DNA of 64,000 nt from Cryptobacterium curtum DSM 15641 (GTDB taxonomy: Bacteria > Actinomycetota > Coriobacteriia > Coriobacteriales > Eggerthellaceae): contig NC_013170.1 of the NCBI RefSeq assembly GCF_000023845.1, forward strand, positions 186,001 through 250,000, read 5' to 3'. The notes beneath the pieces are model-generated. The model had not been told where the DNA came from. It was given only the letters and a program-made list of their open reading frames with translations, and ran no database searches. Within the stretch, counting starts at the first letter, position 1. Each line of letters begins with the position of its first letter. Of the stretch, positions 19,487 to 19,579 are shown in pieces. The position numbers and the translations under genes were made by a program.

Positions 19487-19579
19487 ATGATTCTTGAGCA
19501 AAGCGACATAATTTCGCAGGCAGGCAGGCAGGCAGGCAGGCAGGCAGGCAGCTACAGCTATCTAGTCAGAATCGAATAG
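19487..19579 (+). CDS. Possible leader peptide spanning the CAGG repeat (30 residues)
   Basis: An ATG at 19487 opens a short frame: MILEQSDIIS, then a Gln-Ala-Gly-Arg repeat encoded by the tetranucleotide tract, ending SYSYLVRIE with TAG at 19577-19579. The stop is 9 bases before the base of the hairpin at 19589. The ribosome-binding site is weak (AAGTGG). The tract unit is not a multiple of three, so a one-unit loss would move the stop to 19563-19565 and a one-unit gain would move it to 19588-19590, inside the hairpin. Whether it is translated is unknown. Confidence 0.3.
   Translation: MILEQSDIISQAGRQAGRQAGSYSYLVRIE
19517..19551 (+). repeat. CAGG tetranucleotide tandem repeat (8 full units plus CAG)
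   Basis: Eight perfect CAGG units and a partial ninth, about 180 bases before the adhesin start. Perfect tetranucleotide tracts of this length slip during replication and are the classic basis of phase variation in surface genes. Confidence 0.95.

Follow-up and report, generated by a model that had tools for sequence, protein, structure and literature searches.

The window analysed in the current study is a stretch of 64,000 nucleotides from Cryptobacterium curtum DSM 15641 (positions 186001-250000 of its single 1,617,804-bp contig), and all window features described here lie on its forward strand. It holds the gene of an antigen I/II-type adhesin of 653 aa (19731-21692), identified by domain and structure matches. 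A domain search returned GbpC (E 3.5e-50) and Adhesin_P1_N (E 8.9e-26), and the best solved relatives were streptococcal agglutinin receptor / antigen I/II structures, in agreement with the antigen I/II-like CDS of a preliminary description of this DNA. The protein has the P1 N-terminal, GbpC-like V and C domains that mark antigen I/II proteins, and over these domains its sequence matches the streptococcal members SspB and PAc, whereas its ~650 aa compare with 1551 positions in the family model NCBIfam NF033804, against which it scored 392 bits, below the cut-off of 1500 bits. We therefore name this short relative antigen I/II-type and not a full member. The C-terminus reads, by eye, as SPKTGDD, a hydrophobic stretch and a basic tail; anchor models gave no match. 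ATG 19731 is preferred to ATG 19689 as the start because its Shine-Dalgarno energy is stronger (-10.0 vs -3.2) and because the site, AAAGGTTAG, is conserved in the ortholog L031, which we take to be from Lancefieldella parvula. A close protein scan of the genome collection gave no match. An inverted repeat with a T-run 3' of the gene (21743-21780, seen by eye) is a probable terminator, and the gene upstream (18187-19185) is followed by a terminator of its own (19213-19248, -20.8 kcal/mol).

The leader of the adhesin gene carries a perfect tetranucleotide tract, (GCAG)9.0, of 36 nt at 19516-19551 (repeat search). It is the same array as the (CAGG)8 plus CAG reported earlier at 19517-19551, and the distance of ~180 nt to the CDS given with it is correct for ATG 19731. 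No other perfect tetranucleotide array occurs within the 64-kb window, and the longest period-4 run of 36 nt compares with a mean of 12 nt and a maximum of 14 nt over 100 simulated 64-kb sequences from a dinucleotide model. As the genome was finished from Sanger and 454 data (PMC3035227), tract lengths of 36-44 nt are credible. A perfect (CAGGTGTT)3 array was also observed at 48690-48713 of the window. The tract was absent before the two orthologs L031 and L032. Our literature search found no published account of phase variation by simple sequence repeats in Coriobacteria, and a study of phase variation in Gardnerella searched homopolymer tracts, not tetranucleotides.

A pattern search of the genome found one other site with the tract, before a second adhesin gene. 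Blastn and alignment of both copies delimit a duplicated cassette of 2.47 kb (19349-21820) comprising leader, adhesin gene and the probable 3' terminator, with the second copy on the minus strand (C1:1079428-1081882), ~0.87 Mb from the window copy. The tract in the second copy has 11 units (44 nt), exactly two more than the nine of the window copy, while DNA identity between the copies is 98.2% upstream of the tract and 98.7% after it. This difference of two units, with the adjoining DNA hardly changed, indicates that tract length has changed since the copies were last homogenised. The least conserved stretch of the leader is the 32 nt at 19631-19662 (71.9%); identity then rises to 99.3% through the gene start (a 559-bp flank) and is 99.9% over the final 770 bp. 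Between these flanks lies the V (GbpC-like) region (20222-21050), where the copies share 60.9% of their DNA and 55% of the amino acids of the ligand-binding V domain. With L031, the second copy shares 86% aa identity in its V domain, compared with 60% in the N part and 67% in the C part, and the V domain of the window copy is 55% identical to either of these V domains. Judging from these sequences, V modules have likely been exchanged, L031 being from another genus. A small ORF at 19375-19464, MENVRPHSESMLVAIAICLLFWQDRFCLM followed by a stop, differs between the copies by two synonymous changes and by a change of its stop from TAG to TGG.

The inverted orientation of the copies, whose ends are conserved and whose V regions have diverged, could point to recombination as the main use of the tract, with leaders or V domains being exchanged through it, and in Haemophilus an inversion of ~400 kb between the hmw promoters swaps the repeat tracts of the adhesins (PMC10127715). 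The 559- and 770-bp flanks, at 99.3-99.9% identity, are nevertheless sufficient for recombination, the tract lies ~670 nt from the V region, and Gardnerella genomes in which only one copy was found retain the tract; we regard this role as highly improbable. By analogy with Haemophilus hmw, recombination between the inverted cassettes of C. curtum could flip ~0.87 Mb and trade tracts between the adhesins.

Between the tract and the CDS lies a predicted intrinsic terminator or attenuator hairpin (AAAGGCAG..CGTATCGA TTGT TCGATACG..CTGCCTTT, 19589-19628, with a T-run at 19626-19630) of -25.9 kcal/mol. It is the second strongest of nine terminators on this strand of the window and is identical, and in the same place, in both copies. 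Since a separate terminator outside the cassette serves the upstream gene, and since the hairpin travels with the cassette, we assign it to the adhesin leader. The earlier picture of a tract next to a surface gene is thus incomplete, having included neither this hairpin nor the second copy. An Rfam search of the leader gave no match. A switch of the adhesin reading frame by the tract is ruled out, because the frame opens only ~4 codons before ATG 19689. Refolding of the terminator with tract number, by pairing of GGCAG and CUGCC with the tract, was also considered and rejected: the predicted minimum-energy structure keeps the terminator for n = 0-16, where n is the number of units.

Because both copies have the predicted terminator between the tract and the CDS, transcription from upstream must pass it to reach the adhesin. 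Such transcription would be needless if the hairpin simply ended a short upstream RNA, the adhesin were transcribed from a promoter of its own located after 19630 and the variation of the tract were neutral, and long GCAG arrays do occur in many genomes outside this layout (110 of the 120 tracts among the matches listed have no terminator-like site downstream). A promoter matrix scan found no good promoter-like site from the hairpin to the CDS, however, the stretch in which such a promoter might be sought (19631-19662) is the least conserved of the leader (71.9%), and promoter, tract, terminator and surface gene recur together in several lineages, all of which makes an inert tract unlikely. 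With a terminator in the leader, no good promoter-like site after it and no frameshift possible, an attenuated leader is the simplest reading.

A single ORF, starting at ATG 19487, runs into the tract (19487-19579; at n = 9 it encodes MILEQSDIISQAGRQAGRQAGSYSYLVRIE followed by its stop; ORF and frame analysis). With units of 4 nt, the position of the leader stop depends on the repeat number modulo 3: with n = 3k the ORF ends 9 nt before the hairpin, with n = 3k+1 its TAA lies on the hairpin foot, and with n = 3k+2 it ends 23 nt before the hairpin, a pattern that for a short ORF is mostly what chance would give. Two promoter candidates precede the tract. The upstream one (TTGCAA-17-CAAGAT, 19418-19446, from the matrix scan) is weak, with an extended -10, and its transcript would include the leader ORF. 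The other, P1 (TTGATG-17-CATAAT, 19484-19512), is the best promoter-like site of the leader in the same scan and is also marked by its spacing across lineages, with the pattern TTGA.. -17-.A..AT, whose end lies 3-4 nt upstream of the tract; if used, its transcript would start inside the tract. P1 and the leader ORF cannot serve one RNA, because an RNA from P1 starts inside the tract and the ORF needs an earlier start, and the two are about equally conserved across lineages.

We hypothesize, with a probability of roughly 0.5 and by analogy with the pil1 leader of S. gallolyticus, that the leader is a phase-variable transcription attenuator of the adhesin. Transcription would begin upstream of the tract and normally stop at the hairpin at 19589-19628, and the short leader ORF from ATG 19487 would be translated through the tract. 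Each unit of 4 nt gained or lost by slippage, which we infer to occur during growth, would send the ribosome out of the tract in a new frame. With n = 3k+1 (10, 13, ...), a ribosome at the TAA on the hairpin foot would block the hairpin and the adhesin would be made; for n = 3k, as in the window copy (9), or n = 3k+2, as in the second copy (11), the stop would come too early, so that the hairpin would form and expression would be low. On this model the sequenced stock would express both C. curtum copies at a low level or not at all, and one unit more in the first or one unit less in the second would turn the respective copy on. Among the points against attenuation, the Shine-Dalgarno site of the leader ATG 19487 is weak (-3.6, a value equalled by one third of all ATGs), and P1, the best promoter-like site, would exclude that ATG.

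P1 is more readily accommodated if transcription starts there, so that the tract is transcribed first and n grades initiation, escape, RNA stability or readthrough, with no leader peptide. Moraxella uspA2, with its AGAT repeats (PMC7302503), and the 7-bp repeats of Haemophilus hmw (PMC10127715) provide precedents, and the promoter-like elements recur in other genomes as described below. Such a rheostat gives no reason for the strong terminator that follows the tract, ahead of the CDS, in each layout, and the predicted RNA fold, in which the terminator persists at every n from 0 to 16, also argues against it; we consider it possible but doubtful.

A (GCAG)7 scan of the genome collection gave at least 119 loci, and for 10 of 120 tracts among the matches listed a terminator-like site lies in the 200 nt that follow. 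One of these loci (L047), in Gardnerella vaginalis KA00225, has n = 10 and a hairpin that starts ~36 nt downstream of the tract (37 nt in C. curtum), with the same hairpin foot as in C. curtum, GGCAG/CTGCC. The gene that follows encodes a surface-type protein with beta-helix and Ig-like domains. In two more Gardnerella genomes (L159 and L160) the unit numbers are 9 and 15, the flanks are identical over 150 of 150 nt on both sides, and the downstream proteins share a signal peptide and differ in the mature part (beta-helix type vs leucine-rich repeats). Among 394 genomes of the class of Gardnerella, the sole match was KA00225 itself. Outside the tract, sequence similarity gives no more than a suggestion that the leaders of C. 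curtum and Gardnerella are homologous, with p ~0.005-0.01 adjoining the tract and 0.54 for the wider upstream region. For C. curtum, whose genus is represented by one genome, no second owner of tract and hairpin was found among 138 genomes of the family and 396 of the class, and the family matches to the leader were degenerate tracts. The tract described earlier as a candidate phase-variation switch is therefore borne out as a long pure array in a surface-adhesin leader, with a length that differs by comparison: 9 and 11 units in near-identical copies and 9, 10 and 15 in Gardnerella. The earlier proposal had the kind of system right and its mechanism only in part, attenuation being likelier than a simple promoter-spacing or ORF switch.

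An exact TTGACA lies 32-33 nt before 4 of the 115 (GCAG)≥7 tracts among the matches listed (0.17 expected, chance 2.8e-5), and an ATG ORF enters the tract in a common frame at all four of these loci and in the window, against a background of 8/111 (chance 2.7e-5, post hoc); both tests were chosen after the loci had been seen, so that these probabilities serve as a guide only. The four loci are L047 of Gardnerella, L045 of Acidaminococcaceae, L082 of Defluviitaleaceae and L091 of a Clostridia MAG. Their -10-like hexamers all have A2, A5 and T6, and their 17-nt spacers are dissimilar. This recurrence of the TTGACA position and of the -10-like bases in four other lineages favours initiation at P1-like sites. 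The ORF in one frame, which in L045, L082 and L091 has a strong Shine-Dalgarno site (-8.8 to -11.9), is left unexplained by a rheostat that makes no leader peptide. Upstream promoter candidates with good -10 boxes are present in Gardnerella, L045 and L082, and a weak one in C. curtum. A terminator lies downstream in 3/3 of the loci that could be checked, the L082 contig ending at the tract; the layout is accordingly seen in two Bacillota lineages (L045 and L091) and, up to the tract at the contig edge, in a third (L082). The gene after L045 starts with a signal-peptide-like segment. We favour attenuation: it accounts for the presence of a terminator, for the frame shared by the ORFs and for the strong Shine-Dalgarno sites of other lineages, and it has a tested precedent.

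This precedent comes from the pil1 and pil3 loci of S. gallolyticus (Danne 2014), in which GCAGA repeats in a leader ORF shift the stop relative to a terminator, and for pil1 the mechanism is supported by sequenced variants, chloramphenicol, and leader and terminator mutants (PMC3894217). The C. curtum leader resembles these loci in its GCAG core, short leader ORF, terminator, Gram-positive surface adhesin, variable repeat count and a unit that is not a multiple of 3; such a repeat in the leader of a surface gene, a predicted terminator and a differing repeat number are the features of a pil1-type leader found in C. curtum. The systems differ in the unit and its number (GCAGA, 5 nt, 13-22 copies, vs GCAG, 4 nt, 9-11 copies), and the start site, leader translation and switching have been shown in S. 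gallolyticus, whereas the C. curtum leader is known from its sequence. In C. curtum, moreover, the product is an antigen I/II adhesin, the host is an actinobacterium, there is a second, domain-swapped copy, and P1 abuts the tract.

Haemophilus influenzae hmw1A/hmw2A likewise comprise two related adhesin loci, each with its own upstream tract length, but they have 7-bp repeats with a graded inverse effect, no terminator is described, the adhesins belong to a Gram-negative two-partner secretion system, and the inversion observed in Haemophilus is only possible in C. curtum (PMC10127715). In Moraxella catarrhalis uspA2, an AGAT tetranucleotide tract lies 132 bp upstream of an adhesin ORF, compared with 179 nt in C. 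curtum, and the number of repeats alters the mRNA level; in contrast to C. curtum, the sections of that report available to us describe neither a terminator between tract and ORF nor a leader ORF (PMC7302503).

We tentatively propose, at somewhat less than even odds, that leaders combining (GCAG)n with a terminator belong to one family of portable, phase-variable attenuators in Actinomycetota (Cryptobacterium and Gardnerella) and Bacillota, placed before exchangeable surface proteins and combining random on/off switching with domain swapping. Repeat-driven attenuation has so far been described experimentally in one streptococcus; if it also operates in oral and vaginal actinobacteria and gut Bacillota, it would be a general means by which Gram-positive commensals randomise their surface display. 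The on/off state would then be predictable from the sequence alone (n mod 3), and the presence of an adhesin gene in a genome or metagenome would not be equivalent to its expression.

Scans of viral sequences gave no match to the upstream flank and none to the tract plus hairpin. Viral matches to TTGACA plus tract were rejected as examples of the layout, as they proved to be a tract within phage coding sequence and a site of three units. As a separate observation, the viral contig IMGVR_UViG_3300037455_000448 carries (GCAG)11 and (GCAG)10 at two places (L170 and L171), and one exit frame of the tract enters a gene that, by eye, looks like a phosphoadenosine-reductase type, possibly a phase-variable phage gene.
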